From: Henriciella aquimarina
GTDB taxonomy: Bacteria > Pseudomonadota > Alphaproteobacteria > Caulobacterales > Hyphomonadaceae
Assembly: GCF_002088975.1 (NCBI RefSeq)
Contig: NZ_NCST01000038.1
Span: 62,001 to 126,000, forward strand
Reading direction: 5' to 3'
DNA: 64,000 bases
This document shows positions 3,657 through 23,252 of this stretch, in pieces. A program made the position numbers and the translations under genes. A model generated the notes under the pieces. That model was not told the origin of the DNA, did not search any database, and saw nothing but the letters and a program-made list of their open reading frames with translations. Position 1 is the first letter of the stretch; every line of letters starts with the position of its first letter.

Positions 3657-3686
3657 TTTACCCGTATTTGCCCGGCTTTGCCCGTC
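3657..3686 (+). promoter_or_regulatory. Three tandem decamers, TTACCCG-type operator of the ALDH operon
   Basis: Three head-to-tail decamers lie in direct register: TTTACCCGTA, TTTGCCCGGC and TTTGCCCGTC. The 10-base period places them on one face of the helix, an arrangement used by MalT-like activators. The array ends 66 bases before the aldehyde dehydrogenase start. Related TTACCCG heptamers occur upstream of the hydantoinase, TonB-receptor and HSL-esterase genes. Confidence 0.5.
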
Positions 3687-3752
3687 GGACTCAGTTGATA
3701 AAACCGCCCCCGCCGAACAGCCTGCCCGCATAGATATTTACGGGAGTGAGAT

Positions 3753-5234
3753 ATGCTGGACGGGTTGCGGTTTGACCGCCTCTTCATCAATGGCGAATGG
3801 GTCGAGCCGCTCGATGGCGGCGTGCGAGGCAGCATCGATCCGGCGACCGGCGAAAGCTGGGGCGATGTGGCCTATGGCGGCACCGCCGACATCGACCGCG
3901 CCGTCGAGGCCGCACGCGCCGCCTTTGAAGGCCCATGGCGCACAATGCCCGGGCATGAACGCGCCGCCCTCCTTCGCAAGTTTGCCGACCTCTACGCCTC
4001 CCAGGTCGAACCGCTCGCCCAAATCGAGACGCGCGACAATGGCCGCGCCATCCGTGAGTCGCGCGGCGATATCGGCCTGCACACCCAGTATTATCACTGG
4101 TTCGCCTCGCTGTCCGACAAGCTCTCCGGGCGCACCATCCCCATCGATGACAGCGTGCACGCCTTCACCACGCGCGAGCCGGCCGGCGTCGTCGGCACGA
4201 TCACGCCATGGAATGTGCCGCTCATGGCAGCCGCCTGGAAACTCGGCCCCGCGCTTGCGGCCGGTTGTACGGTCGTCCTGAAGCCCGCCGAACAAACCCC
4301 CGCGTCTTCTCTGGCGCTGGCACGGATCTTCGAGGAAGCCGGCTTCCCGCCCGGCGTCGTCAATGTCGTGCCTGGCGACGGGCCGAGTGCCGGCGCGCAC
4401 CTTGTGGCCCATCCGGGCGTCGACAAGATCGCCTTCACCGGCGAAGGCGCGACCGCGAAGACCATCCTCAAGACAGGCGCCGACACGCTGAAGCGGTTCA
4501 GCTTCGAACTGGGCGGCAAGGCCCCGCACATCATCTTCGCCGATGCCGATGTCGACCAGGCCGTCAATGCCGCGACCAATTCCGCCTGGACGCTTTGCGG
4601 GCAGAGCTGTGCGCTCGGCTCCCGCGTGCTGGTCGAGCGGCCAATCTATGATCGCGTCGTCGAGGCCTTCCGCGAGCGCGCCGCCAAGGTCCGCGTCGGC
4701 ATGCCGCTCGAGGCGGAAACCCATATGGGCCCGCAAGCACACAAGGAACAGCTGGAAAAGACGCTCTCCTATATCGCACTCGGGCGCGAGGAAGGCGCTG
4801 ACCTCATCACGGGGGGCGCCCGGATCGAGACCGCCGGCCTGGCGTCGGGCTACTTCGTACAGCCGACCGTCTTCGCCCAGGTCACGCCAGAAATGCGCAT
4901 CGCGCAGGACGAGATCTTCGGGCCGGTCGCCGGCCTCATCCCCTTCGATGGAGAGGACGAAGCCGTCGCGATCGCCAATGGCACCCCCTATGGCCTGACC
5001 GCCGGGCTCTGGACCCGCGACGCCGGACGCGCCCACCGCGTCTCGCGCCGCATCGAGGCCGGCATGGTCTGGGTCAACACCTACCGCTTTATCCGCTGGT
5101 CGACGCCCTATGGCGGCATGAAGGCCAGCGGCTGGGGACGCGAGAACGGGATCGAAGCGCTCGATTCCTATCTCGAAACCAAGACCACCGTGATCTCCAC
5201 GACCGGCCAGTTCCCCGACGCTTACGCAAAATAA
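3753..5234 (+). CDS. NAD(P)-dependent aldehyde dehydrogenase
   Basis: This 493-residue enzyme is full length for the ALDH superfamily and should oxidise an aldehyde to the carboxylic acid using NAD(P). Visible motifs in order are TPWNVPLMAA (about 151-160), KPAEQTPAS with the cofactor-binding Lys (about 177), FELGGKAP with the general-base Glu252, and GQSC with nucleophile Cys286. The usual FTGS nucleotide-binding motif reads FTGE here (about 228-231), which may alter cofactor handling. GGGAG before the ATG supports the start. The SDR follows after 15 bases and the MFS transporter after that, so this is the first gene of a three-gene operon. The substrate is unknown. Context suggests an intermediate of the catabolic regulon described in the findings. 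Confidence 0.9.
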   Translation: MLDGLRFDRLFINGEWVEPLDGGVRGSIDPATGESWGDVAYGGTADIDRAVEAARAAFEGPWRTMPGHERAALLRKFADLYASQVEPLAQIETRDNGRAIRESRGDIGLHTQYYHWFASLSDKLSGRTIPIDDSVHAFTTREPAGVVGTITPWNVPLMAAAWKLGPALAAGCTVVLKPAEQTPASSLALARIFEEAGFPPGVVNVVPGDGPSAGAHLVAHPGVDKIAFTGEGATAKTILKTGADTLKRFSFELGGKAPHIIFADADVDQAVNAATNSAWTLCGQSCALGSRVLVERPIYDRVVEAFRERAAKVRVGMPLEAETHMGPQAHKEQLEKTLSYIALGREEGADLITGGARIETAGLASGYFVQPTVFAQVTPEMRIAQDEIFGPVAGLIPFDGEDEAVAIANGTPYGLTAGLWTRDAGRAHRVSRRIEAGMVWVNTYRFIRWSTPYGGMKASGWGRENGIEALDSYLETKTTVISTTGQFPDAYAK

Positions 5235-5249
5235 AACAAGGAGAGAGAC

Positions 5250-6014
5250 ATGCGCCTGGAAGGTAAACTGGCGATCGTGACCGCTGCGGCGTCCGGCATG
5301 GGCCGGGCCGGTGTGGAGCGCTTTGTAAGGGAGGGCGCCCATGTGGCCGCCATCGACATCAGCGGCGATGCGCTGAAGACGCTCGTCAACGAGTTCGGGG
5401 CCGACAAGGTCCATCCGGTCGTCGCAGACCTCTCGACGCCGGACGGCGCGCGCGACAGCATCGACGAGGCGGTTGCCGCGCTTGGCGGGGCCGACATTCT
5501 CTGGGCGCATGCCGGCATGCCCGGGCCGGCCTCGGTCGAGGATCTCGACATGGCGGCCTATCAGAAAGCGATGGACCTCAATGTTACCTCCGCCGCCCTC
5601 GGCGCCGGCCAGGTGGCTCAGCATATGCGCGCCCGCGGCGGCGGAGCGATTGTCTTCACCTCGTCCATTTCGGGCCTCGTCGGCTCGATGATGAGCCCGA
5701 TCTATTCCACCGCGAAATGGGCCGTGGTCGGCCTTACCAAGTCGCTCGCGCTCGCCATGGCCGGCGACAATATCCGTGTGAACGTCGTCTGCCCCGGCCT
5801 GGCCGACACGCCGATGAAGTCCGGCTTTACCGGCCGCAGCGGCGATCCGGCGGAAGCCGCCGCCAATGAGGCGAAGATCGTCTCGGCCGTGCCGCTTGGG
5901 CGGCTGGTGAAAGCCGGAGAGGTGGCCGATGCCGTCCTCTGGCTTGTCTCCGGCGAAGCGAGCTTCGTCACCGGCGTCGCCCTGCCCGTGGATGGCGGCT
6001 TCACCGCCAAATAG
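5250..6014 (+). CDS. Short-chain dehydrogenase/reductase
   Basis: This is a 254-residue classical SDR. The N-terminal nucleotide-binding motif reads TAAASGMGRAG (about 11-21), the catalytic triad is Ser138 or Ser139, Tyr152 and Lys156, and the C-terminus carries the usual GVALPVDGGFTAK ending. The NNAG structural motif is replaced by HAG (87-89). It would interconvert an alcohol and a carbonyl with NAD(P). AAGGAGAGAG precedes the ATG. It lies between an aldehyde dehydrogenase and an AAHS-type transporter, so alcohol-to-aldehyde-to-acid oxidation of an imported compound is a reasonable inference. The specific substrate cannot be read from the sequence. Confidence 0.88.
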   Translation: MRLEGKLAIVTAAASGMGRAGVERFVREGAHVAAIDISGDALKTLVNEFGADKVHPVVADLSTPDGARDSIDEAVAALGGADILWAHAGMPGPASVEDLDMAAYQKAMDLNVTSAALGAGQVAQHMRARGGGAIVFTSSISGLVGSMMSPIYSTAKWAVVGLTKSLALAMAGDNIRVNVVCPGLADTPMKSGFTGRSGDPAEAAANEAKIVSAVPLGRLVKAGEVADAVLWLVSGEASFVTGVALPVDGGFTAK

Positions 6015-6039
6015 ACGTCAGCCGGCAGAGGAGGCCGAT

Positions 6040-7374
6040 ATGAGCCAGGACCCGAGACGGACGCTCGATGCCGCGCCGATGCACTGGCGCCAGATCGCGG
6101 TCGTCGCCCTCTGCATCGCACTCAATGCGCTGGACGGCTTCGACGTGCTCGCCATCAGCTTTGCCGCTCCGGGGATCGCCCGGGACTGGGGCATCGACAG
6201 GGCCACGCTCGGCATTGTCCTCTCCATGGAGCTGATCGGCATGGCGGCCGGCTCGGTCCTGATCGGCAATCTCGCCGACCGGATCGGCCGGCGCCCGACC
6301 ATTCTGACCGGCCTCGTCATCATGGCCACCGGCATGCTGCTCTCAGCGGTGGCGGGCAATGTCGTCTTCCTCTCCATCATGCGCCTTGCAACCGGGCTCG
6401 GCATCGGCGGCATGCTGTCGGCGACGAGTGCCATGGTTGCGGAGTTCTCGAACGAGAAGCGGCGCAGCCTCAATGTCGTGCTCAACATTGCCGGCTATTC
6501 CAGTGGCGCCATTCTGGGCGGGCTGGTCGCCTCGCGGTTGCTTGAGGGCAGCGGCGACTGGCACAGCGTCTTCCTGTTTGGCGGCGTCCTCACCCTGGCC
6601 GCCCTGCCGCTCGCCTGGTTCCTCCTGCCGGAATCCATCGACTCGCTGATGGCCCGGCGCCCGGATGGCGCGCTGGAGCGGATCAACCGGACGCTTGCCT
6701 CGCTTGGCCATGCGTCCTTGCGGGCCCTGCCTCCGCCGCCAGCCGAACAGGTGCGCAGTTCGATCACCTCGCTCTTCTCACGCGGCTTTGCCGGGGCAAC
6801 CCTGCTTCTGACGGGCGCCTATTTCGCGCAGATCATGCTCTTCTACTATGTCCAGAAATGGGTCCCGAAGATCGTTGTCGACATGGGCTATGCCGACGCC
6901 GAAGCGGGCCGGGTTCTGGTCGCGGCGAATATCGGTAATCTGGCAAGCGCCGTCCTGATCGGGCTGGCATCGCAGAAGTTCACACTGCGGCCCATGGTGA
7001 TCGCGGCGATGCTGGCCGGCTTTGCCGCCATTGGCGTCTTCGGGTCAGGCCTTGCGAGCCTGTCTGTGCTCTCGGTCTCTGTTGCCGTGGCCGCCTTCTT
7101 CATCAATGCCGGCGTGGTCGGCATGTACCCGATCATGACCAACACCTTCCCGCCGCACCTGCGCGCCAGCGGGATCGGCTTCATCATCGGGATCGGCCGT
7201 GGTGGCTCGGCGGTAGGGCCGATCATCGCCGGCGCCCTGTTCGCCAGTGGCAGCGGCCTGCTGACCGTCTCGCTTGTCATGGGGACCGGCGGCCTTATCG
7301 CCGCGGCCATGCTGGTTCTGCTGCCACGAACGGAGGCCGGCAAGCGGCTGAAACGGATCGAGCAGACCGGCTGA
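6040..7374 (+). CDS. MFS transporter, aromatic acid:H+ symporter-like
   Basis: This 444-residue inner-membrane protein has about 12 predicted helices. The first helix carries the DGFD motif, and the loop after helix 2 carries GNLADRIGRR, both typical of the AAHS (PcaK/BenK-like) branch of the MFS. A central cytoplasmic loop at about 195-235 separates the two six-helix halves. AGAGGAGG just upstream fixes the ATG at 6040 and excludes longer in-frame starts inside the SDR gene. It closes the ALDH-SDR operon and probably imports a carboxylated, perhaps aromatic, substrate. Other organic acids are equally possible. It converges with the regulator gene after only 17 bases, with no obvious terminator hairpin between them. 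Confidence 0.87.
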   Translation: MSQDPRRTLDAAPMHWRQIAVVALCIALNALDGFDVLAISFAAPGIARDWGIDRATLGIVLSMELIGMAAGSVLIGNLADRIGRRPTILTGLVIMATGMLLSAVAGNVVFLSIMRLATGLGIGGMLSATSAMVAEFSNEKRRSLNVVLNIAGYSSGAILGGLVASRLLEGSGDWHSVFLFGGVLTLAALPLAWFLLPESIDSLMARRPDGALERINRTLASLGHASLRALPPPPAEQVRSSITSLFSRGFAGATLLLTGAYFAQIMLFYYVQKWVPKIVVDMGYADAEAGRVLVAANIGNLASAVLIGLASQKFTLRPMVIAAMLAGFAAIGVFGSGLASLSVLSVSVAVAAFFINAGVVGMYPIMTNTFPPHLRASGIGFIIGIGRGGSAVGPIIAGALFASGSGLLTVSLVMGTGGLIAAAMLVLLPRTEAGKRLKRIEQTG

Positions 7375-7391
7375 AGCCGCGCCAGTCGCGC

Positions 7392-10106
7392 CTAGTGCGG
7401 CGTCGGTGCCCCAAACGAGAAATCGTTTTCCAGATCCGGGATCAGCCCGCGCTCGGCCGAGACCCGCACTGCATCGCGGCGCTTGCTGACACCAATCTTC
7501 CGGAACACCGACTTCAGCCGGTATTTCACCGTGTCCGGCGACATGCCGATCAGCCGGGCAATCTCCTTGTTGGAGTGGCCCTGGCTCAAATAATAGAGCA
7601 CTTCGGCTTCGGCCTCGTTGAACGGCCCCGACACGGCGACATGGTTGCGGCTGGCCGACACCGATTTCGCGACCGCCTTCAGGAACTGGCCCCGAAACCG
7701 GTCGACCTGTGTATCAGCCCGCATCGCATCATCGAGACAGGGCTGGATGAACCGGCCGGCCTCCACGAAGGGCCGGATGATGTTCTGGAACATGGCGATG
7801 CCGACCGCTTCGTCGAAACAGGCGCGCGACTCCTCGAGTGCGCCGCTCCGGCGATGGGCAAAGGCGGCCAGCATGTTGATGTCGATCAGGAGACGTCCGG
7901 CGCCGCGCTGATCGGCCCATGCCCGAAGCTGGGCAAGCCCCTCCAGGGCGGCAGCATCCTCCCCGCCCAGAAGCTGCAGCCTGACCCGGCAGAGTGAAGC
8001 CGCCACGGAGACCGGGCGGTATTGCGGGGCTTCCTCGCTCATCATGTCGGCCAGGGCATCGAGGCCAAGCTTGCCGGCCAGCGCACTGGCAGCCTCCTGC
8101 TCGCCGCCATGGGCGATGTGAAGCTCGATCTCGCAGATATCGGCGAGCAGCTGCAGCTGACGCAGCCGCCGCCACTGGGCAGTCCGCCGTGCCCGCGCAA
8201 TCACGGCTCGCGCCTCGTCCAGCGCCCCAGCCCCGGCGAGCGCCCGAGCCTCGGTGAAATAGGCGGCGGCGTAGACATCGACCCAGCCATCCGACTGTTC
8301 CATGTGCGGCAGCGCCCAGGCCAGCAGCGCACGGGCCTCCTCCACCTTGTCCTGCTCATAGAGCAGCTCGGCCTGGAAGGCGTTGCAATTGGCTGCGAGG
8401 TCCGAACAGTCGCCGAAATTGCCGACAATGGTCTCGCAGGCGGTGTCCAGGATGGTCTCGGAATCCTTGAACCGGCCCTGTGCCCGCTTGATCCGGGCCT
8501 CGAGGAATCGCGTGAAGAGGTCGCTGTAGAGGGCATTGCACGCCTGATAGTGCTCGCGCGCCACGAGCGTCGGCTGAAGCGCGCGCTCCAGCCAGCCCCC
8601 CTCGAAATACTTCGCCGCCAGCGTCTCGCTGACATTGGCGAAGACGAGATGGTCATTGGCCGGCAGCTTGCGCAGCAGCGCCTCGCGCGCCAGCAGGTCA
8701 TCGAAGGTTACGGGCTGGTTTTCATAGTCCGACAGCGTATCCCCGACGACCCGGACCTCGGTGCGCAGATCGGCGGAAAATTCGCTGGAATCGACCTCCT
8801 CGCAGAACCGGTCGAACGCCACGCGCGCGGTCCCCAGTTCGCCCAACTTGAGCTGGAGATAGACATAGGCCAGCGCGAGTCGCGGCCGGGTCTGCAGCAG
8901 CCCCTCCGGGAGGTTGGCAAGCGCCTGCTCGACCACGCTCTGCAGCCCCTGCGGGATCAGCCGCCAGCCGCCGGCGTCTTCGAGGATGGTGGCCAGCGTC
9001 TCATCGTCATCGCCAAGGATGGCGTGATTGACCGCCTCGGCGACCATGCCCCGGCGGGCGAACCATGTCGCGGCCCGGCGCTGCAGCTCCGCAAACTCGT
9101 CGCGCCTCGACTTGCGGAACCGGTCGCGGAGATATTCGGCAAAGAGCTGGTGATAACGGTATTGCCGCCGCTCCGGCGTAACGGGGACAAGGAAGACGCC
9201 CTGATGCTCAAGCCGCTCAAGCACCAGCCAGCCATCCTGACGGTCGCAGAGCAGATTGACGAGATCGCCGGTGAGCGTGTCGAGCAGTGCGGTCCGGTTG
9301 ACGATGTCGCGGGTTTCCTCGGGCAGGGTCATCAGAACCTGCTCCGACAAATAGCGCGCCAGATCGCTGCCGGAGCGGGCCGTCTGCGCCATCAGGCGCT
9401 CCTGCCCGATCCCCTGTTTCAGGGAAAGCGATGTCAGCTGGACGGCAATCGGCCAGCCCTCGGTCCGGTCCAGGATCTGGCCGACATCCTCCTCGACAAG
9501 ACTCGCATCGACCCGTGTGAGCAGCGAGCCTGCCTCATGCGCCGAAAAGCGCAGATCCCGCGCGGTAATTTCCAGGAGCTGTTCCTCGGCGGCGAGCACC
9601 GACTGGCCAAGCCAGGGATAATCGCGCGAGGCAAAGACGAAATGGCAATTGGCCGGCGCGAGCTTGATGAGGGATTTGAGGAAATGAATGACGGTGTCGC
9701 TGCCGGCATGATGCAGGTCGTCGAGGATGAGCACGAAGGGCTCGCTGCGGCTGGCCAGCAGGTTGACGATGGCCGACAGCGCCGCACGCGGCGGCAGGTC
9801 GGTCGAGAGCGGCTGGGGCTCGGTATCCGGTGCGTCGCCCAGAATGGCCAGCACCAGATGTTTCAGCAGGCGCTTGAAGTCCCGGTCGTCGCGGTCGAGC
9901 GTCAGCCAGGCGAGTTTGACCGGGCGGTCCTCCAGCGCGATGCGCCATTGCGCGAGCAGGCTGGTCTTGCCGTAACCGGCCGGCGCATGAACCAGGGTGA
10001 GACGATGGGATAGCGCAAGATCGAGCCGTTCCAGCAGCGTGTCACGTCTCAGCTGGTCCCCCATCCATACGGGCGGGTCGAACTTTGCAGCAATCACTTC
10101 ATCCAT
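7392..10106 (-). CDS. MalT-like LuxR-family ATP-dependent transcriptional regulator (LAL)
   Basis: This 904-residue regulator has the large STAND/LAL architecture. Walker A is APAGYGKTS at about residues 41-49 and Walker B is VLILDDLHH at about 120. A winged-helix and long TPR-like sensor region fills about 300-820, and a LuxR helix-turn-helix occupies about 838-895 (SQGHSNKEIARLIGMSPDTV). LAL proteins such as MalT are activated by ATP and a small ligand and bind arrays of direct repeats on one helix face. The gene sits between the ALDH operon (convergent) and the hydantoinase operon (divergent). TTACCCG repeats in nearby promoters are candidate targets. The ligand is probably the pathway substrate or an intermediate, which is inference. 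Confidence 0.88.
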   Translation of the reverse strand: MDEVIAAKFDPPVWMGDQLRRDTLLERLDLALSHRLTLVHAPAGYGKTSLLAQWRIALEDRPVKLAWLTLDRDDRDFKRLLKHLVLAILGDAPDTEPQPLSTDLPPRAALSAIVNLLASRSEPFVLILDDLHHAGSDTVIHFLKSLIKLAPANCHFVFASRDYPWLGQSVLAAEEQLLEITARDLRFSAHEAGSLLTRVDASLVEEDVGQILDRTEGWPIAVQLTSLSLKQGIGQERLMAQTARSGSDLARYLSEQVLMTLPEETRDIVNRTALLDTLTGDLVNLLCDRQDGWLVLERLEHQGVFLVPVTPERRQYRYHQLFAEYLRDRFRKSRRDEFAELQRRAATWFARRGMVAEAVNHAILGDDDETLATILEDAGGWRLIPQGLQSVVEQALANLPEGLLQTRPRLALAYVYLQLKLGELGTARVAFDRFCEEVDSSEFSADLRTEVRVVGDTLSDYENQPVTFDDLLAREALLRKLPANDHLVFANVSETLAAKYFEGGWLERALQPTLVAREHYQACNALYSDLFTRFLEARIKRAQGRFKDSETILDTACETIVGNFGDCSDLAANCNAFQAELLYEQDKVEEARALLAWALPHMEQSDGWVDVYAAAYFTEARALAGAGALDEARAVIARARRTAQWRRLRQLQLLADICEIELHIAHGGEQEAASALAGKLGLDALADMMSEEAPQYRPVSVAASLCRVRLQLLGGEDAAALEGLAQLRAWADQRGAGRLLIDINMLAAFAHRRSGALEESRACFDEAVGIAMFQNIIRPFVEAGRFIQPCLDDAMRADTQVDRFRGQFLKAVAKSVSASRNHVAVSGPFNEAEAEVLYYLSQGHSNKEIARLIGMSPDTVKYRLKSVFRKIGVSKRRDAVRVSAERGLIPDLENDFSFGAPTPH

Positions 10107-10210: not shown

Positions 10211-10260
10211 TTACCCGGATTGTCTGGAAAGCTTACCCGTTCCGGGCCTTCAGACACCCG
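10211..10260 (+). promoter_or_regulatory. Phased TTACCCG repeats upstream of hydantoinase operon
   Basis: Two exact TTACCCG heptamers start at 10211 and 10233, with a third related ACACCCG at 10254. Spacings of 22 and 21 bases put all three on the same helix face. They lie in the 226-base divergent region between the LAL regulator and the hydantoinase operon, 74-123 bases before the latter. They point toward the hydantoinase operon, so activation of that operon, and possibly autoregulation, is the natural reading. Confidence 0.5.
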
Positions 10261-10333
10261 TTTTTCCGATTGCACGGCCCTGCCCCCCTCTTTCTAATCC
10301 GACCAAGAGTTGAGTGATCGAGGAGGCTTCAGG

Positions 10334-14341: not shown

Positions 14342-15735
14342 GCACGACTACCCTCACCGGGATCTGCGATCTCGACGCGCATGCCCAGGCCGATCTCGTC
14401 CATCGCGGCGAGGTCACACCGAAAGAGCTTGTCGAGGCCGCTTTCCAGCGCATCGAACAGCTCAATCCGGTCCTGAACGCCGTCAGCCATGTCGCTACCG
14501 ATCATGCGTTCGCTGCCGCGGAGGCCATGGACCGGGACGCGCCGATGGCCGGTGTACCCTGCCTGCTAAAAGCCTCGATGGAGTATCCGGGCTTTCCGCA
14601 TGTCTCGGGCTCGCGGACCCGCAAAGACGCCATCGGACAAACCAAATATCCGTTTGCTGAAAAAATGGAGGCGGCTGGCCTCATTCCCAGCGGGATCACG
14701 ACCATGCCGGAATTCGGCCTGATCGGCTCCGGCGAGGCGCTGGTCTACGGCCCGACCCACAATCCTTGGAACACCGCGCATGGCGCTGGCGGCTCCAGCA
14801 GCGGCGCCGGCGTTGCGGTCGCAAGCGGCATGGTGCCCTTCGCGACCGGCAGTGACGGCGGCGGCTCGATCCGTATCCCGGCCAGTCATACCGGGACGGT
14901 GGGGTTCAAACCGAGCCGAAACTGGAACCTGCGCTCGCGCGGGCCGGGCCTGATGGATGACCTGCTGGCCTCGGATGGTCTGCTCGCCCGCTCCATGCGC
15001 GACGCAGTATGGGCGGCCCAGACCTTGCGGACCCAGCCGCCCGAAGAAGTTCTGATACAGAAGCCCTTGCGCATCGCCCTGAACCTGACCGGCATCGACG
15101 GGGCCCCGCCCGAGGCACAGATCGCCGACATCATCACCCGGACCGCCCAGCTCTGCGAGGATCTCGGCCATCATGTGCAGGACGTCGGCCCCCTGATGGA
15201 CATGGATGCCATTGGTCAGGCTTTCGATGTGCTCTGGTCCTACGGGGCGGGCGAAGCCGTCGACCTGTGTCGCGCAAAACTCGGCGCGACAGCCGACACG
15301 CTTCTGGAACCCTGGAGCCTCGGTCTCGCGGCAAGACGCTCCGACCATACGCCGGATGACCTCGCCCGCGCGCTGGCCATGGTCGGCCGGATCGACCAGG
15401 CGCTCGACCTCTTCTGGAACGAGTATGACGTCGTCCTGAGCCCGGTGACCAGCAACCCGCCCCCGCCGCTCCGCGTGCTCGCCCCCGACCGGGATTTCGA
15501 CGCCCTGTGGCGCGACCATTTCCGGCATGTGAACTACACCCAGTTCCAGAACATGGCCGGCTATCCCGGGATCTCGCTTCCTCTCTTCGAATGTGCGGAG
15601 GGCCTGCCAGCCGGGTCGATGTTCTGGGGCCCTCACGGGGCCGACGACCTTCTGCTCGCCCTCGGCTGCCAGCTTGAAATGGCCTGCCCCTGGTCCGGCC
15701 GCCGGCCGCCCATGCTTGTCAAACCCGGCCCCTGA
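14338..15735 (+). CDS. Amidase signature enzyme
   Basis: This 465-residue hydrolase belongs to the amidase signature family. The Ser-cisSer-Lys triad is visible as Lys78 (CLLKAS), Ser153 (GGSSSG) and Ser177 (GSDGGGS), with the expected 24-residue gap between the two serines. The surrounding glycine-rich block runs through about residue 190. There is no signal peptide, so it acts in the cytoplasm on an amide or a carbamoyl compound. Its start overlaps the permease stop (ATGA). In context it would hydrolyse the linear amide produced by ring opening, with release of ammonia or an amine. That order of steps is inference. Confidence 0.9.
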   Translation: MSTTTLTGICDLDAHAQADLVHRGEVTPKELVEAAFQRIEQLNPVLNAVSHVATDHAFAAAEAMDRDAPMAGVPCLLKASMEYPGFPHVSGSRTRKDAIGQTKYPFAEKMEAAGLIPSGITTMPEFGLIGSGEALVYGPTHNPWNTAHGAGGSSSGAGVAVASGMVPFATGSDGGGSIRIPASHTGTVGFKPSRNWNLRSRGPGLMDDLLASDGLLARSMRDAVWAAQTLRTQPPEEVLIQKPLRIALNLTGIDGAPPEAQIADIITRTAQLCEDLGHHVQDVGPLMDMDAIGQAFDVLWSYGAGEAVDLCRAKLGATADTLLEPWSLGLAARRSDHTPDDLARALAMVGRIDQALDLFWNEYDVVLSPVTSNPPPPLRVLAPDRDFDALWRDHFRHVNYTQFQNMAGYPGISLPLFECAEGLPAGSMFWGPHGADDLLLALGCQLEMACPWSGRRPPMLVKPGP

Positions 15736-15761
15736 CAGATTAACGCCAAAGGAGACCCGAC

Positions 15762-16655
15762 ATGACCCCATCTTTCCTGAAACAGATGATGCTCGGGATC
15801 AGCCTTGCCGCGCTCACACCAGCCATCGCCGCCCCATCCAACGCGCAGCCGGCCGAAACGCAGGGCTATGTCGTGCCCGAAACAGAGGTCTGGGACATCG
15901 AGGCCGCGCATGGCGAAACCTATCGCATCTATATTTCCAGACCCGAAGGCGAAGCGCCCGAGCAAGGCTATCCCGTGCTCTATGTGCTTGATGGCAATGC
16001 GCTGTTCGCCGGCTTTGCCGAGGCCCGCCGGATCCAGAGCATCTACAATTACGGCTTCGACAAGATGATCGTTGTCGGGATCGGCTATCCCAATCAGGAA
16101 CTCTACGATTCCCGCCGCGTGGGGGACTTCACGCCGCCGATAGAGGCGCCGTTCCTGGCCGAGTATCACAAGGACGATCCGTCCGGGAAACGCGACCTGT
16201 TCTTCGACTTCCTGATGGATGAGCTTCGCCCGGAAATCGAGACGCGCTATTCGATCAATCCGCTGCGCCAATCGCTCTACGGCCACTCGCTCGGCGGCCT
16301 CTTCGCCCTGCATGTGCTCTATACGCAGCCGGATGCCTTCAACGCCATCATCGCCGCCAGCCCGGCCATCTGGTGGGACAGGCAAATGATCATCAAGGAA
16401 GAGCAGGCCTTCGCCGCAAGGCTGGAAGACGAGCCCGAGCTTCTCGGTCATGTCGCCCGCCTGCTGCTTCTCGTCGGCGAGCGCGAGGAAGAAAGCGCGA
16501 TGACAGGCGACACCATCCTGCTCGGCGAACGCCTGAAGGACCTCTCGAAATACGGGCTGCGCAGCGATTACCAGGTCTTCGAGGACGAAACCCATATCAG
16601 CGTGCCGAGCCGGTCGGTGACCGTCACGATGCGCGAGGCCATGCAGTGGCCATAA
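15762..16655 (+). CDS. Exported alpha/beta-hydrolase esterase (Fes/IroE-like fold)
   Basis: The 297-residue protein starts with a signal peptide (about 1-29). It has the putative-esterase fold of siderophore esterases and feruloyl-esterase-like proteins: VLYVLDGNALF near 72-82, the nucleophile elbow GHSLGG with Ser176, and a C-terminal His in DETHISV. It follows the amidase by 26 bases with AAAGGAG before the ATG, so it is the last gene of the hydantoinase operon. A periplasmic esterase that trims the substrate before the NCS1 permease imports it would make sense. A siderophore-ester role is also possible given the FhuA-like receptor nearby. Confidence 0.82.
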   Translation: MTPSFLKQMMLGISLAALTPAIAAPSNAQPAETQGYVVPETEVWDIEAAHGETYRIYISRPEGEAPEQGYPVLYVLDGNALFAGFAEARRIQSIYNYGFDKMIVVGIGYPNQELYDSRRVGDFTPPIEAPFLAEYHKDDPSGKRDLFFDFLMDELRPEIETRYSINPLRQSLYGHSLGGLFALHVLYTQPDAFNAIIAASPAIWWDRQMIIKEEQAFAARLEDEPELLGHVARLLLLVGEREEESAMTGDTILLGERLKDLSKYGLRSDYQVFEDETHISVPSRSVTVTMREAMQWP

Positions 16656-16679: not shown

Positions 16680-18452
16680 CTATTCGGTCGATACGTCGCT
16701 GAACTGGTCCAGCTCTCCATAGACCGCCTCGCCCTCGAACAGGGTCAGGATGACGCTCGCCTGCGAGATCTCCATCAGCGGCATCTCGAAGATGTTCTTG
16801 TCGAGCACAATCAGGTCGGCGCTCTTGCCGGCCTTGATGGAGCCGGTGACATCCTCGTTCCAGTTCGTATAGGCGACGTTCAGCGTGTGCGCCTTCACCG
16901 CCTCTTCCAGGCTGACAGCCTCGTCCGGCAGAAGCGGTGCGGAGTCCGGCTGCTCATAATTCACCCGGGTCGTGGCCACTTGCAGGCCAAGCAGGGGATC
17001 GGCCGTCGCGACGGGCCAGTCGGCCCCGTAAGCGAGAATGCCACCGCCTTCGAGAACGCTGCCGGCCGGGTAGATATATTGCGAGCGTTCCGGGCCGATC
17101 GCCTTCTTGGTGAGGTCCATATAGAGATAATTGGCCGTCCAGGTCGGCTGGAAGACCGCGATCACGCCAAGTTCGCCAAAGCGCGGCTGGTCGGCCGGAT
17201 CAATCACATTGAGGTGCGAGATCATCGGACGCTGAGCGCTTCCATTGGCCACGACCGCCGCTTCGAACGCATCGAGCGCGGTCCGCGTGGCGCGGTCGCC
17301 GATCGCGTGGACGTGCGGCTGCATGCCATGCGCGGTCAGCTCCGTGACGGCCTGCGTCAGGGTCTCCGGCGGGATCTGCAGCTTGCCGCGGAAATCGGTA
17401 TCGCCGGCATAAGGCTCGATCATGGCCGCCGTTCTCTGCGGAATGACGCCGTCTTCGTAGAGCTTCACCGATTTTGCCGTGATACCGGCCTCCCGGGCCC
17501 GTTCGGACGCCTCGAGGATGACAGGGATCTGCTCGAGCGATCCGCCATTTTCCCACTTGAAGGCCAGCGAGACATGGCTGGTCAGCGACCCGCTTTCCAT
17601 GACCGCTTGGTAGGCCTCAAGTGTCTTGCTTGTTCCGTCCGGGCCAAGATCGATCCCGGCATCGTGCCAGTTGGTAATGCCCAGCCGGTTGAATTCCTTC
17701 GCGACATAGAGAATGGACTCCTGCATCTCAGCCGATCCCGGCGCGGCGACAAAGTCGCTGACCAGCTCCATGGCGCTTTCCTGCAGGCCGCCGACAGGCT
17801 CGCCCGTTTCAGGATCGCGATTGATGTGACCATTCTCAGGATCGGGCGTCTCGCTGTCGATCCCGGCCAGTTCGAGCGTCTTCGAATTGACCCAGTAGCT
17901 GTGACCGCCCACGGACTCGAAGACGAGCGGCCGGTCGGTCGACACCTCGTCCAGAACCTCCTTGCGGGGAATGCCATTGGGCGGAAACAGCGAGTCTTCC
18001 CAGCCCACGCCATAGACCGGTTCGCCGGCCGGCCTGTCTGCGATGCAGCCGGCAATGATCTCCTGATAATCCTCGAGGGTCTCGCCCTCATGCAGCGAGC
18101 AGCGCGTATACGCCATGCCGCCGAAGACCGGATGGACATGGGCGTCCCCGAAGGATGGCATCAGCAGGCGCCCGCCAAGGTCGACAGTTTCCGTGCCGGT
18201 CCCGGCATAGCGGGCAATGTCGGCCTGCGTGCCCACAGCGACAATCCGGCCATCGTCGACTGCGACGGCCTCAGCCCAGGGCTGGTCGGGCTCAACGGTG
18301 TAGACGCGCGCATTGACGAAAAGCAGGTCCGCCGGGTCGGTGGCGGCCTCTGGCGAAGGGCTGGCGCAGGAGGAAAGCCCCCCTGCGCCAAGGAGAGCCA
18401 TGCCCGCTGCAGCTGAGAGGAGGTTCGCCCGGTTACAGAAGACAGATGGCAT
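16680..18452 (-). CDS. Exported amidohydrolase family 3 protein (YtcJ-like)
   Basis: This 590-residue protein has a lipoprotein-type signal with Cys29 in LSSC, so it is probably membrane-anchored in the periplasm. The amidohydrolase-3 fold is shown by FGDAHVHPVFGG (metal-binding HxH), KLYEDGVI with the likely carbamylated Lys or metal ligand, and HVHAIGDRA near the middle. YtcJ-like enzymes hydrolyse N-acyl or cyclic amide bonds, but most are uncharacterised. It lies 75 bases downstream of the TonB receptor on the same strand, with a hairpin in between. The pairing suggests that the receptor delivers an amide-containing molecule that this enzyme cleaves in the periplasm. Confidence 0.85.
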   Translation of the reverse strand: MPSVFCNRANLLSAAAGMALLGAGGLSSCASPSPEAATDPADLLFVNARVYTVEPDQPWAEAVAVDDGRIVAVGTQADIARYAGTGTETVDLGGRLLMPSFGDAHVHPVFGGMAYTRCSLHEGETLEDYQEIIAGCIADRPAGEPVYGVGWEDSLFPPNGIPRKEVLDEVSTDRPLVFESVGGHSYWVNSKTLELAGIDSETPDPENGHINRDPETGEPVGGLQESAMELVSDFVAAPGSAEMQESILYVAKEFNRLGITNWHDAGIDLGPDGTSKTLEAYQAVMESGSLTSHVSLAFKWENGGSLEQIPVILEASERAREAGITAKSVKLYEDGVIPQRTAAMIEPYAGDTDFRGKLQIPPETLTQAVTELTAHGMQPHVHAIGDRATRTALDAFEAAVVANGSAQRPMISHLNVIDPADQPRFGELGVIAVFQPTWTANYLYMDLTKKAIGPERSQYIYPAGSVLEGGGILAYGADWPVATADPLLGLQVATTRVNYEQPDSAPLLPDEAVSLEEAVKAHTLNVAYTNWNEDVTGSIKAGKSADLIVLDKNIFEMPLMEISQASVILTLFEGEAVYGELDQFSDVSTE

Positions 18453-18514: not shown

Positions 18515-18527
18515 TAGAATGGCAGGA

Positions 18528-20699
18528 TCAGAACCGGCGGGTCACCGAGGCCAGGACGGTGCGGTCCTTGGCAGCCACGCAATAGCCATAGGGCGCCGAG
18601 GACAGCCCGCAGGTGGCGTAATACTTCTCATTGAGAAGATTGCTCGAATTCACCGAAACCAGCCAGTTGCCATAACTGGCCGAGACCATTGCGTCGACGA
18701 GCGTGACCGATGGCGTCACGAAGGCCTGCGCGGTATCGATCTTGTCACCGATATAGCGCACACCGCCACCGGCCCGCAGCGTCCAGCCATTGTCGAGCTG
18801 GAAGCTCTTGGTGGTCCAGACCGATGCGAGGTGCTCGGGGATGTCGGCGATGCGGTCGCCTTCTGCCAGAGACTGGCTGGAGGAGAGCACTTCGGCCTCG
18901 GTGTAGCTGTAGGACGCCATGAAGTCGAAATCTTCCGGCATGCGGATGACCGCCTCAAGCTCGACACCCTGGGAGCCGACCTCGCCGCCCTGCAGGAAGT
19001 TCTGAATGTTTTCAGGATCCTGCGAGACATAGTTGGACTCTTCGATGTCGAAGAGGGCGAGCGTGAACAGCATGCCGCTTTGCGGCTCCCACTTCGCGCC
19101 AACCTCGTACTGACGGGCCGTGCGCGGCTCGAACGGATTGCCGAAAAAGTCCCCGCCCGGCACGGGCAGGAAGGATTCCGAATAGCTGAAATAAGGCGAC
19201 AGGGTCTCGGTCACGTCAGCGATGACACCGCCGCGGAAAGAGACCTGGTCCTGGTCCAGCTCGTCGACCCCGTTGCGTTCGGATTCCGCGGTATCGTGGC
19301 GAACGCCGAGCAGGACGTGCAGCCAGTCATTATAGGTGATCTGGTCCTGCGCATAGAAGCCGAGCTGAGAGCTGTTGTATTCCAGAAAGTTCGTATAGCC
19401 GTAGTCGATGTCGCCGCCCGGCTGCGGGTTGTAGATGTCGATCGGTGGCGGACTGCCGCCGACATAGCACCCGAAGAGGCCTTCAAACCCGTCGCAGGAA
19501 AAGCCTTCCGCCTTGCTCTGGTCGAACCAAATATAGTCGACCCCGACGAGCACTTCATGCTCGAAAGCCCCCGTGGTCAGCTCAACGAGGACATTATTGT
19601 CAGTGTTGATGACTTCGCTCTGCTCGTCATTCACATAGAATTCCCGCTGCAGAAGCGTTTCTTCCGGGTCCGCGAATGGCGTCACGCCGTCGGAGAAGTC
19701 GCCATAGATTTCCTTGTAGTCACTATCCATGTCCGAATAGCGCGAGGCGCTGCGGAAGGTGATGTTCGGCGCGAACTTGTGGGTCACGAGCAGCGAGCCC
19801 GACGTATAGGTCGTGTCCATGCCGTTGAAGCCCGGCTCGCCCTGGTAGAAGTTGAAATCCACCTTTTCGGCTTCGCTGCCCGCATTGATGGATTTCGACA
19901 GCGGCACATAGCCGAGCGACCCGTTCTGATCTTCCTGGTAGAGACCGATCAGCGTGATTTCCGTGTCCGGCCCCGGCGCCCAGGTGAGGGACGGGTTGAT
20001 CAGGACCCGGTCGTCCGGCGTGCCCCACTGGGTTTCACCGTCCCGTGCGAGCACGACAAGGCGCCCGGCGAGCTGGTCGGTCAGCGGGCCGGTAATATCG
20101 CCCTGGAATTGCAGGCGGCTATCGGTGCCGACAACCACGCCGGCCTCGCCGCCATATTCGAACTTCGGGGTTTTGCTGGCACCATTCAGAACGCCGCCCG
20201 GACCGCCGGCCCCATAGAGCACCGACGAGGGCCCGCGCAGGACCTCGGCACGCTCGAGCGTGTAATTCTCAAGCCGGGCGCCGTAGATAAAGTCCGGCAT
20301 CCGCTTCAGGCCGTCGAGATATTGCGCTGCTTCGAAGCCGCGCGCGTTCACGAAATCCCCGCGGGAGTCGACGCTTTGCGCCGGCGCCACACCGGCGCTG
20401 TAGCGGTAGACATCCTGCAGGTCGACGGCGGCGCGCTCGCGGAACTCATCGTCCGTGATCACACTGATCGACTGGGGAACTTCCGTCAGCGGGGTCAGCG
20501 TCTTGGTGGCGGCCACAGCGCGTGTGCCAGTCACGAAGACCGTGTCCATCGCCGCTTCTTCATCCTGGCTCGCGGCGGCCTCGTCGGCCTCTTGCGCGAC
20601 ACCGGATGCCTGGAAAGCCAGGGCGCAGGTCATGGACATCAGGGCAAACCTGAATGTTCTCGTTATGCCTCCGCGGCTGTGTGTAAATGTGGACCTCAT
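18528..20699 (-). CDS. TonB-dependent outer-membrane receptor, FhuA/siderophore type
   Basis: The 723-residue receptor has a signal peptide (about 1-35). A TonB-box-like DTVFVTG is near residues 51-57, and a plug domain with VPQSISVI and VLRGPSSVLYGAGGPGG lies within about 70-200. A 22-strand barrel follows, ending in the aromatic residue of ASVTRRF. GAGAGGGG before ATG 20699 supports the start. The plug resembles siderophore receptors, but no Fur-like palindrome is visible upstream. Instead there are CGGGTAA/TTACCCG repeats shared with the catabolic operons. Import of the pathway substrate is therefore at least as likely as siderophore uptake. The amidohydrolase follows in the same direction. 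Confidence 0.88.
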   Translation of the reverse strand: MRSTFTHSRGGITRTFRFALMSMTCALAFQASGVAQEADEAAASQDEEAAMDTVFVTGTRAVAATKTLTPLTEVPQSISVITDDEFRERAAVDLQDVYRYSAGVAPAQSVDSRGDFVNARGFEAAQYLDGLKRMPDFIYGARLENYTLERAEVLRGPSSVLYGAGGPGGVLNGASKTPKFEYGGEAGVVVGTDSRLQFQGDITGPLTDQLAGRLVVLARDGETQWGTPDDRVLINPSLTWAPGPDTEITLIGLYQEDQNGSLGYVPLSKSINAGSEAEKVDFNFYQGEPGFNGMDTTYTSGSLLVTHKFAPNITFRSASRYSDMDSDYKEIYGDFSDGVTPFADPEETLLQREFYVNDEQSEVINTDNNVLVELTTGAFEHEVLVGVDYIWFDQSKAEGFSCDGFEGLFGCYVGGSPPPIDIYNPQPGGDIDYGYTNFLEYNSSQLGFYAQDQITYNDWLHVLLGVRHDTAESERNGVDELDQDQVSFRGGVIADVTETLSPYFSYSESFLPVPGGDFFGNPFEPRTARQYEVGAKWEPQSGMLFTLALFDIEESNYVSQDPENIQNFLQGGEVGSQGVELEAVIRMPEDFDFMASYSYTEAEVLSSSQSLAEGDRIADIPEHLASVWTTKSFQLDNGWTLRAGGGVRYIGDKIDTAQAFVTPSVTLVDAMVSASYGNWLVSVNSSNLLNEKYYATCGLSSAPYGYCVAAKDRTVLASVTRRF

Positions 20700-20814
20700 G
20701 CTAATTCACCCCTCTCTCTGTCGGTAGCCTGTTGCCGCAGAAGCCAATGCGTCGTATGCGCGGCGCTTCCATGACAATTCAACAACAATCGCGGTCCTGA
20801 ATCGTCGTCTTTTC

Positions 20815-20864
20815 AGGGTAATCGCAAGTAAAAGCGGGTAAGAGCTTCCGGGTGATCCGGGTGA
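20815..20864 (-). promoter_or_regulatory. CGGGTAA/CGGGTGA repeats upstream of the TonB receptor
   Basis: On the plus strand AGGGTAA starts at 20815, CGGGTAA at 20835, and CGGGTGA at 20849 and 20858. The first two are 20 bases apart and read TTACCCG toward the receptor on the minus strand. They lie 116-165 bases before the receptor start, in the 292-base divergent region. The rest of that region holds only the partner array for the HSL esterase. Confidence 0.45.
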
Positions 20865-20919
20865 ACCCGCCGTTACTACACTTTGGCGAGAAAATAGCCA
20901 GCCTGACGCGGCTTTTTCG

Positions 20920-20947
20920 TTACCCGTATCGGCCCCGCTTTTACCCG
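20920..20947 (+). promoter_or_regulatory. Paired TTACCCG sites upstream of the HSL esterase
   Basis: Two exact TTACCCG heptamers start at 20920 and 20941, 21 bases apart (two helical turns). The second ends 44 bases before the esterase ATG. Orientation toward the downstream gene matches that at the ALDH and hydantoinase promoters. Confidence 0.5.
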
Positions 20948-20991
20948 CTCAGCAGATTGCGCCGCCTTTCGCCTGGCATACACATGCCGCC

Positions 20992-21957
20992 ATGACGACT
21001 CTGAAAGACCTGGATCCGGATATTCACCGCTTCCTTGAGACCATGCGGGAAGACTGGAAGGCTTGGCCGGCCCTGGAAACCATGTCCTTCCCCGAACAGC
21101 GCATTGCCGCCGAACGGGTTCGCGAACGCTGGACGCGCGGCGGCCCGGACATGGCGGTGACCGAGGATTTCACCTTCGACTTCGGCGCCGGCGTGCTGGG
21201 CATCCGCATCTACCGGCCCGTGGCAGACGACACGCCGCTTCCGGCGCTCGTCTATGTCCATGGCGGCGGCTTCACCCTGTTCAACATCAACACGCATGAC
21301 CGCCTGATGCGGGAATATGCCGCCCAGAGCGGCGTCGTGGTAATCGGCGTCGACTATCCGCTGGCGCCTGAAAACAAATATCCCGTCGCGCTCGACAGGA
21401 TCGAAGCGCTGATGCTGTGGCTTGGCGAGCATGCCGGGCGCTGGAAGATCGATCCTGGCCGGATCGCCATGGGCGGCGACTCAGCCGGCGGCAACCTCTC
21501 CTTCGCAACGGTGATGCGGTTGCGCGACAAGGGAAAGGCCGGCCTCGTCAAAGCCATCCTCTCCAATTATGGCGGCTTTTCCCCGCACATCTCCGACGAG
21601 GCCGAAGCCCGCTTCGGCGGGCCCGGCTCGATCATGGACCGGGCCGAGGCGGAACAGTACTGGACAAACTATCTGCGCGGCCGCGAGGATGAAAGCGACC
21701 CTCAGGCCTGCCCGCTGCTGGGCGATGTCTCGGGCTTTCCGCCGGTCATGCTGGTCATTCCGGACCTCGACCTCGTTGCCGAGCACAGCTTCGCCATGCA
21801 GGAACGCCTGGCGGACGCCGACGTCGACGTGGAAACGAAAGTCTATCCCGGCGCGGTGCACAGCTTCCTGGAAGCCATGTCCGTCTCATCGCTCGCCCGC
21901 CAGGGCATCGCCGACGGCGCAGCCTTCATCCGGAAAACCCTAGGCGGCAGGCCCTGA
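20992..21957 (+). CDS. HSL-family alpha/beta-hydrolase (esterase/lipase)
   Basis: This 321-residue cytoplasmic enzyme belongs to the hormone-sensitive-lipase family. The oxyanion-hole HGGG is at residues 90-93, the nucleophile elbow GDSAGG carries Ser164, an Asp is found in PDLDLVAEH, and the catalytic His is in GAVHSFL near residue 295. Such enzymes hydrolyse short acyl esters. The paired TTACCCG sites just upstream and the divergent TonB receptor place it in the proposed catabolic regulon. It converges with the CoA-transferase gene, with only 14 bases between the stops and no clear terminator. Confidence 0.9.
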   Translation: MTTLKDLDPDIHRFLETMREDWKAWPALETMSFPEQRIAAERVRERWTRGGPDMAVTEDFTFDFGAGVLGIRIYRPVADDTPLPALVYVHGGGFTLFNINTHDRLMREYAAQSGVVVIGVDYPLAPENKYPVALDRIEALMLWLGEHAGRWKIDPGRIAMGGDSAGGNLSFATVMRLRDKGKAGLVKAILSNYGGFSPHISDEAEARFGGPGSIMDRAEAEQYWTNYLRGREDESDPQACPLLGDVSGFPPVMLVIPDLDLVAEHSFAMQERLADADVDVETKVYPGAVHSFLEAMSVSSLARQGIADGAAFIRKTLGGRP

Positions 21958-21971
21958 GCCCGCAGTGTCCA

Positions 21972-23129
21972 CTAGGACCGCGAGCGCTCATAAACCGACA
22001 GCTCACTGAGGATATCGTCCCGGTCCCCGTCCAGGGCCGGGGCCGGGCGGTCGGCCTCTTCCTGGGCGGTCCGGCTGGCGAAGGGCGAGGCGGCATAGAG
22101 CAGGTCGCCTTCGGCAGGGTGCGTCATCTGCCGGAAATAGCCGGTGGCAGCCAGATGCTCTTCGCCGGGCAGGTCCTCGATCCGGTTGACCGGTGCGCAA
22201 GGGATGTCGGCCTCGCGCAGCGCGTCGAGCCACGCCCGCGTCGTGCGTTCGGGGGCAGCCTGTTCAATGGTCTCATAGAGCATCTCGATCCGGCTGGAGC
22301 GCGCCTCATTGTCCGACAGCCAGTCGGCTTCGGCGAGATCGTCGCGTCCGATCAGGCCGAAGAAACGGCGCCAGTGGGCTGCCGTATACGGCATGATCGC
22401 GGCATAGCCGTCGCGCGTGCGATAGGGTTTCCGCCCGGCGGCATTGAGCCGGATATAGCCTCTGTCGGGTAGCGGCGGAACGAAAGTCTGGCCACTCAAC
22501 TGCTCGATCAACAGGAAGGACGCCATCGCCTCATACATCGGCGTCTCGATATGGCAGCCTTCGCCCGTGCGGGCGCGCGCCGCGAGGCCCGAGGCCACGG
22601 CGAATGCCAGATGCAGACCGGCAACCTTGTCACACAGGATGGTCCGCACGAAACGCGGCGCCCCGGAGGCATCGGCGTTCAGCCAGGCGAGCCCGGATGC
22701 CGCCTGGATACAGTCATCATAGGCCGGCTCGTCGCCATAGGGCCCTTCTCCGTAGCCACGGGCGGAACAATAGACGATGTCCGGCTTCACCGCCTTTACC
22801 GTGTCATAGTCGATGGCGAGCTTGCGGGCGCTCTTGTCGCGCATGTTATGGACGAAGACATCGGCGGTCGCGGTAAGCCGGTCGAGGATGGCCTTGTCGT
22901 CCGGCTTCGCGAGGTCCAGTGCGATGGACCGCTTGTTGCGGTTACAGTTGAGAAAACCGGCCCCGTCGCCGCCGGGCTGGCCCGGACGCGCGCCGCGAAA
23001 GACATCGCCGCCGGCCGGCTCCACCTTGATGATATCGGCGCCCATGTCGCCCAGAAGCTGCGTCGCATAGGGGCCAAGCACGACCGTGCTCAGATCGATG
23101 ATCCGCACCCCTTTCAGAAGATCGAACAT
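21972..23129 (-). CDS. CaiB/BaiF family III CoA-transferase
   Basis: This is a 385-residue family III CoA-transferase. The N-terminal LLKGVRIIDLSTVVLGP and the following DMGADIIKVEPAGGD (about residues 30-45) are family hallmarks, as is LNCNRNKRSIALDL near 70. The enzyme moves CoA between carboxylic acids, activating an acid without ATP. GGAGGG right before ATG 23129 selects this start over a longer in-frame start at 23210. The gene lies downstream of the PaiB-like gene on the same strand after 116 bases. It could activate the acid produced by the ALDH pathway, which is inference. The acyl substrate is not identifiable. Confidence 0.85.
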   Translation of the reverse strand: MFDLLKGVRIIDLSTVVLGPYATQLLGDMGADIIKVEPAGGDVFRGARPGQPGGDGAGFLNCNRNKRSIALDLAKPDDKAILDRLTATADVFVHNMRDKSARKLAIDYDTVKAVKPDIVYCSARGYGEGPYGDEPAYDDCIQAASGLAWLNADASGAPRFVRTILCDKVAGLHLAFAVASGLAARARTGEGCHIETPMYEAMASFLLIEQLSGQTFVPPLPDRGYIRLNAAGRKPYRTRDGYAAIMPYTAAHWRRFFGLIGRDDLAEADWLSDNEARSSRIEMLYETIEQAAPERTTRAWLDALREADIPCAPVNRIEDLPGEEHLAATGYFRQMTHPAEGDLLYAASPFASRTAQEEADRPAPALDGDRDDILSELSVYERSRS

Positions 23130-23225
23130 GGCAGCCCTCCTTTGCGCAGTTTGCCCAGGCTCCTTCGGCCCTCGCAAACCTTGATACACCGCGAGGAGCG
23201 CCGTGGTCACCGCCAGAGGACGGAC

Positions 23226-23252
23226 TTACCCATGATCCGGGGCCGTTACCCG
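23226..23252. promoter_or_regulatory. TTACCCA/TTACCCG pair near the CoA-transferase promoter
   Basis: TTACCCA starts at 23226 and TTACCCG at 23246, 20 bases apart as at the other proposed operators. They lie 97-123 bases upstream of the CoA-transferase start. The second site overlaps the PaiB-like stop codon, and the pair points away from the CoA-transferase, so chance is harder to exclude here. Confidence 0.25.

Follow-up and report, generated by a model that had tools for sequence, protein, structure and literature searches.

Phased direct repeats of a TTACCCG-type heptamer precede several catabolic genes that surround the gene of a MalT-like regulator of the LAL type in Henriciella aquimarina (assembly GCF_002088975.1, contig NZ_NCST01000038.1, positions 62,001 to 126,000; this whole stretch of 64,000 nucleotides is called the window here, and positions count from its first letter). 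This article describes the evidence, drawn from sequence comparison, that these repeats are predicted operators of the LAL protein and that the genes behind them form one co-regulated catabolic regulon, a reading to which a probability of about 0.87 is given. The genes concerned are the following.

3753..7374, plus strand: probable operon of an aldehyde dehydrogenase (ALDH, 3753-5234), a short-chain dehydrogenase/reductase (SDR, 5250-6014) and an MFS transporter (6040-7374) (Pfam, NCBIfam)
7392..10106, minus strand: LAL (MalT-like) regulator of 904 aa, with Pfam AAA_16, TPR_MalT and a C-terminal GerE/LuxR helix-turn-helix (HTH) domain above cut-offs
10334..16655, plus strand: probable hyuA operon (Pfam; genes overlapping or separated by short gaps), with the next five genes
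10334-11962, plus strand: hyuA (Pfam)
11952-13055, plus strand: DUF917/S-Me-THD-like gene (Pfam)
13052-14341, plus strand: NCS1 permease (Pfam)
14338-15735, plus strand: amidase (Pfam)
15762-16655, plus strand: PF00756 esterase with a signal-peptide-like start, judged by eye (Pfam)
16680..18401, minus strand: Amidohydro_3 hydrolase, second gene of the tonB unit, with a lipobox-like N-terminus, judged by eye (Pfam)
18528..20639, minus strand: TonB-dependent receptor of the siderophore subfamily (Pfam, TIGR01783)
20992..21957, plus strand: HSL-family esterase (Abhydrolase_3; Pfam)

The repeats themselves lie at the following positions, and all heptamer coordinates given in the original prediction agreed with the sequence. 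Steps of 10 bp occur in the window only before ALDH, together with TTGCCCG copies.

3658..3684, plus strand: predicted ALDH operator, TTACCCG at 3658 and TTGCCCG at 3668 and 3678, in 10-bp steps
10211..10217, plus strand: hyuA box 1, TTACCCG (sequence, alignment, matrix)
10233..10239, plus strand: hyuA box 2, TTACCCG, 22 bp past box 1
10254..10260, plus strand: hyuA box 3, ACACCCG, 21 bp past box 2 (CACCCG in most aligned relatives)
20815..20841, minus strand: predicted tonB operator, TTACCCG at 20841-20835 and TTACCCT at 20821-20815, 20 bp apart
20920..20947, plus strand: predicted HSL esterase operator, TTACCCG at 20920-20926 and 20941-20947, 21 bp apart
23226..23252, plus strand: TTACCCA at 23226 and TTACCCG at 23246, at the end of an FMN_bind_2 gene and upstream of a CoA-transferase gene; not accepted as an operator

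The heptamers are over-represented and clustered. TTACCCG occurs nine times in the window against 2.55 expected, a number reached in none of 100 shuffles, and seven copies fall in the 2,196 bases between 3.5 and 24 kb that are non-coding by our own gene calls, for which 2,000 shuffles gave a mean of 0.18 and a maximum of 3. The same bases hold five same-strand TT[AG]CCC pairs at 19-22 bp, including the doubtful pair at 23226 (mean 0.009, maximum 1 in 2,000 shuffles). When the host genome was searched (4,335,829 bases, 132 contigs), TTRCCCG-N12-16-TTRCCCG was found four times in 4.34 Mb, before the ALDH, hyuA and HSL genes and once near hisG on another contig, and the reversed pattern, taken as control, once. 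The hisG-near pair (locus L003) was rejected as an operator since it reads away from the next gene.

A two-box matrix was trained on 41 pairs from 21 chosen relatives, the window pairs being kept out of the training. It ranked the tonB (28.2), hyuA (26.8), HSL (24.4) and ALDH (22.0) pairs as the best four of the window; the maxima of 40 block-shuffled windows had a 95% value of 18.8 and a largest value of 20.9. The ALDH boxes, which the original prediction had placed beside the others, are the weakest of the four accepted sites. The CoA-transferase, which had also been assigned to the regulon, was rejected as a member: the pair at 23226 points away from it, the matrix score of this pair (19.9) is within the range of the shuffled windows, and no box pair was seen upstream of the CoA-transferase ortholog in genome G279 (locus L089).

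Assignment of the regulator to the MalT-like LAL proteins, already proposed for 7392-10106, was borne out by its Pfam domains and by the match of residues 5-417 to the MalT structure 8bob in PDB. The protein has the architecture of the activator class (about 900 aa, NTPase, TPR_MalT, LuxR HTH), an APAGYGKTS motif that we take to be its Walker A, and an HTH helix reading SPDTVKYRLK. It is not MalT itself, as judged by the NCBIfam MalT model (313.5 bits against a cut-off of 537) and by its targets, which are not maltose genes. Its only full-length match in its own genome is itself, two further matches spanning the HTH alone. With a threshold of E 1e-60, three of 105 genomes of the family contain it (the protein itself and matches of 45% and 29% identity), and with E 1e-100 two of the 385 genomes of a class sample do.

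A scan of GTDB contigs with the LAL protein gave 40 loci, of which 38, with 48-74% identity, were kept; L051 and L052 (30% identity; Mycobacterium, Paenibacillus) were left out. The kept loci belong to Sphingopyxis, Sphingosinicella, Sphingomonas, Novosphingobium, Croceicoccus, Caulobacter, Niveispirillum, Pseudoxanthomonas, Luteimonas, Steroidobacter and other genera. The HTH is the best conserved of four parts of the protein (mean 78% identity to the window protein, against 60-64%). According to our own gene calls and clustering, hyuA, DUF917 and NCS1 are each present in 34-35 of these loci and Amidohydro_3 in 32; the order hyuA-DUF917-NCS1 is kept across relatives, with this set divergent from the LAL gene in most maps, and the order TonB-Amidohydro_3 is found in many. 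Genes for a TonB receptor, ALDH-SDR-(IclR)-MFS, esterase, amidase, FMN_bind_2 and CoA-transferase are likewise met repeatedly. Among the maps compared, the gene order most similar to that of the window is that of G279 (LAL 74% identical), which reads ALDH-SDR-MFS, LAL, hyuA-DUF917-NCS1-amidase-esterase, Amidohydro_3, TonB, HSL, CoA-transferase, FMN_bind_2 and GntR-aminotransferase.

The boxes are conserved along with these genes. The non-coding DNA of the 38 loci holds 70 same-strand TTACCC pairs at distances of up to 60 bp, and 63 of them are spaced at 19-22 bp (six at 19, 14 at 20, 30 at 21, 13 at 22 and seven at other distances), while coding DNA contains four such pairs. Redundancy was controlled by keeping one locus per 85% LAL group, a grouping that excludes L048 and L053; in the resulting 23 loci, 38 of 45 pairs are at 19-22 bp, for which 200 dinucleotide shuffles gave a mean of 0.01 and a maximum of 1. 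In all DNA of the window and relatives, 64 of the 69 TTACCC pairs at 19-22 bp lie no more than 400 bp before a gene of the same direction (61 of 65 in the relatives alone). The other four pairs of the relatives (L025, L030, L039, L047) reflect gene-call failures and were identified by tblastn as hyuA or tonB promoters, so that all 65 precede and point to a gene; the fifth unplaced pair is that of the window at 23226. The targets of the 65 pairs are hyuA (26), tonB (20, in 19 loci), Amidohydro_3 (6) and other genes (13); exact pairs are thus present before hyuA in 26 and before tonB in 19 of the 38 loci. Pairs before HSL, in a divergent tonB/HSL layout with boxes on both sides, also occur in Niveispirillum irakense (L086) and in G279 (L088/L089). 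Orthologous promoters thus share the boxes, in Alphaproteobacteria and Gammaproteobacteria alike. What comparison shows is an arrangement of two or three direct heptamers about two helical turns apart, oriented toward their genes and conserved together with the LAL gene.

The promoters of the window show the following putative elements downstream of the boxes.

10270..10298, plus strand: putative sigma-70-type hyuA promoter, TTGCAC (10270-10275), 17 bp and TCTAAT (10293-10298)
20777..20782, minus strand: putative tonB -10, TTGAAT, 39 nt from where the proximal box begins
20957..20984, plus strand: putative HSL -35, TTGCGC (20957-20962), 16 nt from where the proximal box begins, and weak -10, TACACA (20979-20984)

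When the hyuA promoters of the window and 15 chosen loci were aligned, they read TTACCC(G), TTACCC(G), mostly CACCCG, and then TTG, which is invariant in 16 of 16. Distances were counted on pattern matches only (24 hyuA-type and 25 tonB-type, from 39 sources). In the hyuA type, TTG lies 9 nt past box 3 in 24 of 24 matches, under a pattern that permitted 7-9. The distance between the first letter of the proximal box and that of a loosely defined -10 is 39 nt in 17 matches and 37-41 nt in the other seven. The tonB promoters consist of two boxes and a TT[GC][AT]AT-type hexamer, for which this distance is 38 (1), 39 (13) or 40 (11) nt, much as in the hyuA type; six of these 25 matches drive Amidohydro_3 and one is the tonB promoter of the window. 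TTGC is also found, by eye, 16 nt from the proximal HSL box in L086 and L089. The hyuA promoter is thus predicted to hold a three-box operator with conserved putative -35 and -10 elements. If the -10 begins at position -12, we infer that the boxes would be centred near -48 (proximal), -69 and -90 and would all share the same helix face.

Whether the boxes belong to the LAL protein was approached by several comparisons. In 25 LAL genomes (24 of the 38 loci and L053), 62 of 75 TTACCC-N13-16-TTACCC pairs are no more than 20 kb away from the locus, and the reversed pattern occurs 24 times anywhere. Homologs of hyuA are present in 26 of the 385 class genomes, and 24 of these have no close LAL ortholog, that is, no match at E 1e-100, the sample being taken as the same in both scans; TTACCC was absent within 500 bp upstream of hyuA at all 27 homolog loci of these 24 genomes, whereas the hyuA genes of the window and of G279 do carry it. 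Where the recognition helix has SPNT for SPDT (Steroidobacter, G032, L039), the boxes read CTACCCA, CTGCCCA, TTGCCCA or TTACCCA at similar spacing.

Several points weigh against the proposal of one LAL-controlled regulon. The relatives were fetched by LAL similarity, so that the presence of LAL in them is not independent evidence. The TTACCC pair pattern occurs in 48 of 105 family genomes and is not rare as such, so that a TTACCC pair alone is no proof; one identical 25-mer accounts for 30 of these matches, and a tandem repeat of a single genus for 15. The control homologs of hyuA are 45-55% identical, and in at least three (L122-L124) the upstream 500 bp lie within or near another gene, which makes this control fair, not strong. 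TTACCCA also occurs in some SPDT loci and one of three Steroidobacter boxes is TTACCCG, so that the link between helix and box is a tendency, seen in three lineages. The pairs at 23226 and near hisG match no promoter, and in the ALDH promoter (TTGATA at 3695-3700) the boxes are degenerate and a clear -10 is missing at the usual distance. In L039, L049 and L050 neither an IclR gene, in the stretch covered, nor boxes before ALDH were found; in L049 and L050 ALDH starts within 6 nt after Amidohydro_3. Gene starts, operons and -10 elements rest on our own gene calls and patterns.

Control of the ALDH unit requires separate consideration. In the 26 loci with an ALDH start, an IclR gene lies within about 2.5 kb, in the stretch covered, in 18, and a GAC-N6-GTC palindrome, probably the operator of the IclR protein, precedes ALDH in 16. 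An example before ALDH-SDR-IclR-MFS is TTTCCATATGTGGACAAATTAGTCCACATTAAGAAA in L026, others being found in L027 and L040. In six palindrome loci (L013, L016, L017, L018, L024, L041) a single LAL box is present too, about 77 nt upstream of the ALDH start codon. The window, L038 and L088 have the ALDH set without IclR gene or palindrome and carry tandem LAL boxes instead (TTACCCG and CGACCCG, 20 bp apart, in the latter two), a pattern that suggests a shift of ALDH control away from IclR and towards LAL. For L031, an IclR gene is found in the same genome past the locus, near ALDH (L092), and L017 ends at a contig end.

These data bear on the possible alternatives. The LAL protein might control uptake and first hydrolysis only (hyuA, tonB, HSL), with ALDH-SDR-MFS as a separate unit that is IclR-controlled in many relatives; the ALDH boxes are the weakest and lack a clear -10, and most IclR-bearing relatives have a single LAL box or none before ALDH. 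This division is considered unlikely for the window, as its ALDH pair exceeds the maxima of 40 of 40 shuffled windows and the tandem pair is kept in L038 and L088, which have no IclR gene. The boxes might also be owned by another regulator, the LAL protein being a bystander, and candidates do exist: the IclR protein encoded by the ALDH operon in many relatives, a MocR-type GntR-aminotransferase regulator (23979-25430 in the window), or some distant factor. IclR was rejected as owner because the genome of the window has no ortholog (best match 25% identity) and yet has the boxes, and because the palindrome is its likelier site; the MocR protein falls in a cluster of only four members among the called loci. 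The absence of boxes at hyuA homologs without a close LAL ortholog and the shift of boxes with the LAL recognition helix make any other owner very improbable. Finally, single TTACCCG copies away from the cluster (44432 and 48457 in the window) and the unrelated pairs in family genomes could be taken to indicate that the repeats are an effect of chance or composition in intergenic DNA, a notion that shuffles, genome-wide counts, the spacing peak, orientation and conservation together reduce to practically nothing.

With the CoA-transferase excepted, the proposed single regulon was upheld by rarity, conservation, spacing, orientation, the absence of boxes at hyuA homologs without a close LAL ortholog and the helix-linked shift of the boxes; since the same repeats stand before the same genes in many bacteria, one co-regulated pathway is very probable. 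In the mechanism proposed, a small inducer and ATP would switch the LAL protein into a multimer whose HTH domains would bind the in-phase boxes cooperatively on one helix face, and the subunit beside the -35 would recruit RNA polymerase at sigma-70-type promoters. The four accepted promoters would then drive 11 genes, those of TonB and Amidohydro_3; HyuA, DUF917, NCS1, amidase and exported esterase; HSL; and ALDH-SDR-MFS, whose products would take up, hydrolyze and oxidize one compound with amide, ester or cyclic-amide bonds.

LAL activators acting on direct repeats are already known and the present system is expected to work like them; no description of this regulator or cluster was found in the open-access literature searched, which was partly judged by title. 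MalT serves several promoters of one uptake-and-breakdown system, and its promoter sites are closer to the start. The prototype from Escherichia coli and Klebsiella shares the ATPase, TPR_MalT and GerE-type HTH (with the 8bob match) and differs by decanucleotide sites in place of the heptamer TTACCCG, and by its maltose targets; the proximal box proposed here is near -48. Its operators are described as decanucleotide sites in direct repeat (PMC6099782). TpdR of Rhodococcus jostii TMP1, a LAL activator of tetramethylpyrazine catabolism, acts on two direct repeats, and its promoter is reported as dead when one of them is missing (PMC6099782); the likeness extends to an N-heterocycle degradation operon, whereas the repeats (15 bp), the operon (tpdABC) and the host (an actinobacterium) differ. 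PimR-type SARP-LAL regulators of Streptomyces have operators in which heptameric direct repeats, two or three of them, follow each other in phase with the helix (PMC5930380), but the spacers measure 4 or 3 bp, which gives steps of 11 or 10 bp, and the SARP domain binds them; PimR lacks the LuxR HTH. MilO, a LuxR-family activator of mildiomycin biosynthesis, uses three imperfect direct repeats (PMC11784345), which differ, according to this source, in length (11 bp), spacers (2 nt) and site (142 bp upstream of the start). Operator direct repeats in target promoters are a trait of LAL activators and are found here as well, their link to the protein being a comparative one. A DUF917-family enzyme likewise stands beside a hydantoin-type hydrolase in ergothioneine utilization (ErtD, thiohydantoin desulfurases; NCBIfam names), but the gene set differs and the DUF917 protein of the window is far under both ergothioneine-type cut-offs (107.3/450 and 93.5/440 bits). 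It was consequently rejected as an S-methyl thiohydantoin desulfurase, the equivalog cut-off being 450; caprolactamase and thiohydantoin desulfurase identities for HyuA and DUF917 were likewise discarded, with scores far under the model cut-offs.

The significance of these observations is that a regulator, an operator code of narrow geometry and a set of target genes are brought together for a pathway of several Alpha- and Gammaproteobacterial genera. With this code, more genes of the pathway can be sought in each genome. Box pairs were observed before a PepSY_TM gene (L087, 8325-8453) and a MocR-type GntR-aminotransferase gene (L089, 5344-5371), both of which would be regulon members that vary between genomes; in some relatives box-bearing units include a PepSY_TM gene or, as in Sphingopyxis, a YbiX-type Fe2+-dependent dioxygenase that passed its cut-off. 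Besides, a screen with a promoter reporter built on the operator code could reveal the inducer and thereby the identity of the compound.

As for the substrate, the lipobox-like Amidohydro_3 hydrolase and the signal-peptide-like PF00756 esterase imply that the first hydrolysis may be periplasmic, and the presence of the NCS1 permease, HyuA, DUF917 and the amidase hints at an intermediate that is a cyclic amide or resembles one. The TonB receptor passed the TIGR01783 cut-off (300.2 against 223.5 bits) and its PDB matches are the enantio-pyochelin receptor, FhuA and FoxA. Upon substrate induction, this FhuA/FoxA-type receptor might take up a chelator-type compound (siderophore, metallophore or similar), which would be hydrolyzed for carbon and nitrogen, with the LAL protein sensing a breakdown product; this is a doubtful proposal, to be treated as a lead and not as a result. 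Bacterial amidases are described to degrade desferrioxamines, the products serving as carbon and nitrogen source (PMC11800396). In Niveispirillum irakense DSM 11586 (L034, L086) the cluster is present from hyuA to HSL, together with the same operators, and Azospirillum irakense, the same species, is named in the reference list of PMC11800396 in work cited for desferrioxamine degradation, a reference also listed in PMC12364333; the strain of the cited work may differ. According to PMC11800396, iron-bound desferrioxamine is not degraded, which speaks against entry as a ferri-siderophore.

A few further observations were made around these loci. Just upstream of the ALDH boxes (3-3579), the window encodes PepSY-like (by eye), ApbE-DUF2271, DUF4198 and EF-hand proteins, which look like an iron- or flavin-linked periplasmic set. 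By the tonB boxes, an exact 9-bp tandem repeat, TCCGGGTGA x2 (20847-20864), gives minus-strand CACCCG motifs. The identical 25-mer of the 30 family genomes is TTACCCCACCCTTTCACCCTTACCC, and it is unrelated to LAL. In G506, contig 16 (L085, 1352-9251), which is not the contig that holds the LAL gene, has Amidohydro_3, TonB receptor, esterase, cupin and Amidohydro_1 genes with two box pairs, perhaps a remote arm of the regulon. Ten of the 24 hyuA genomes without a close LAL ortholog were screened for distant LAL proteins, and three hold them (25-31% identity). In L122 and L124 the genes of such proteins (28-31% identity) are neighbours of hyuA-DUF917-NCS1, and both loci, which are alike (L122, 4896-5129; L124, 10427-10728), contain a CCCTGCC repeat at 21 bp with a similar motif midway, at a shuffle p of 0.01-0.16, not significant in L124; the same shuffle test gave no significant repeats at L123 and L012. 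The partnership of LAL and hyuA may be older than the TTACCCG code.

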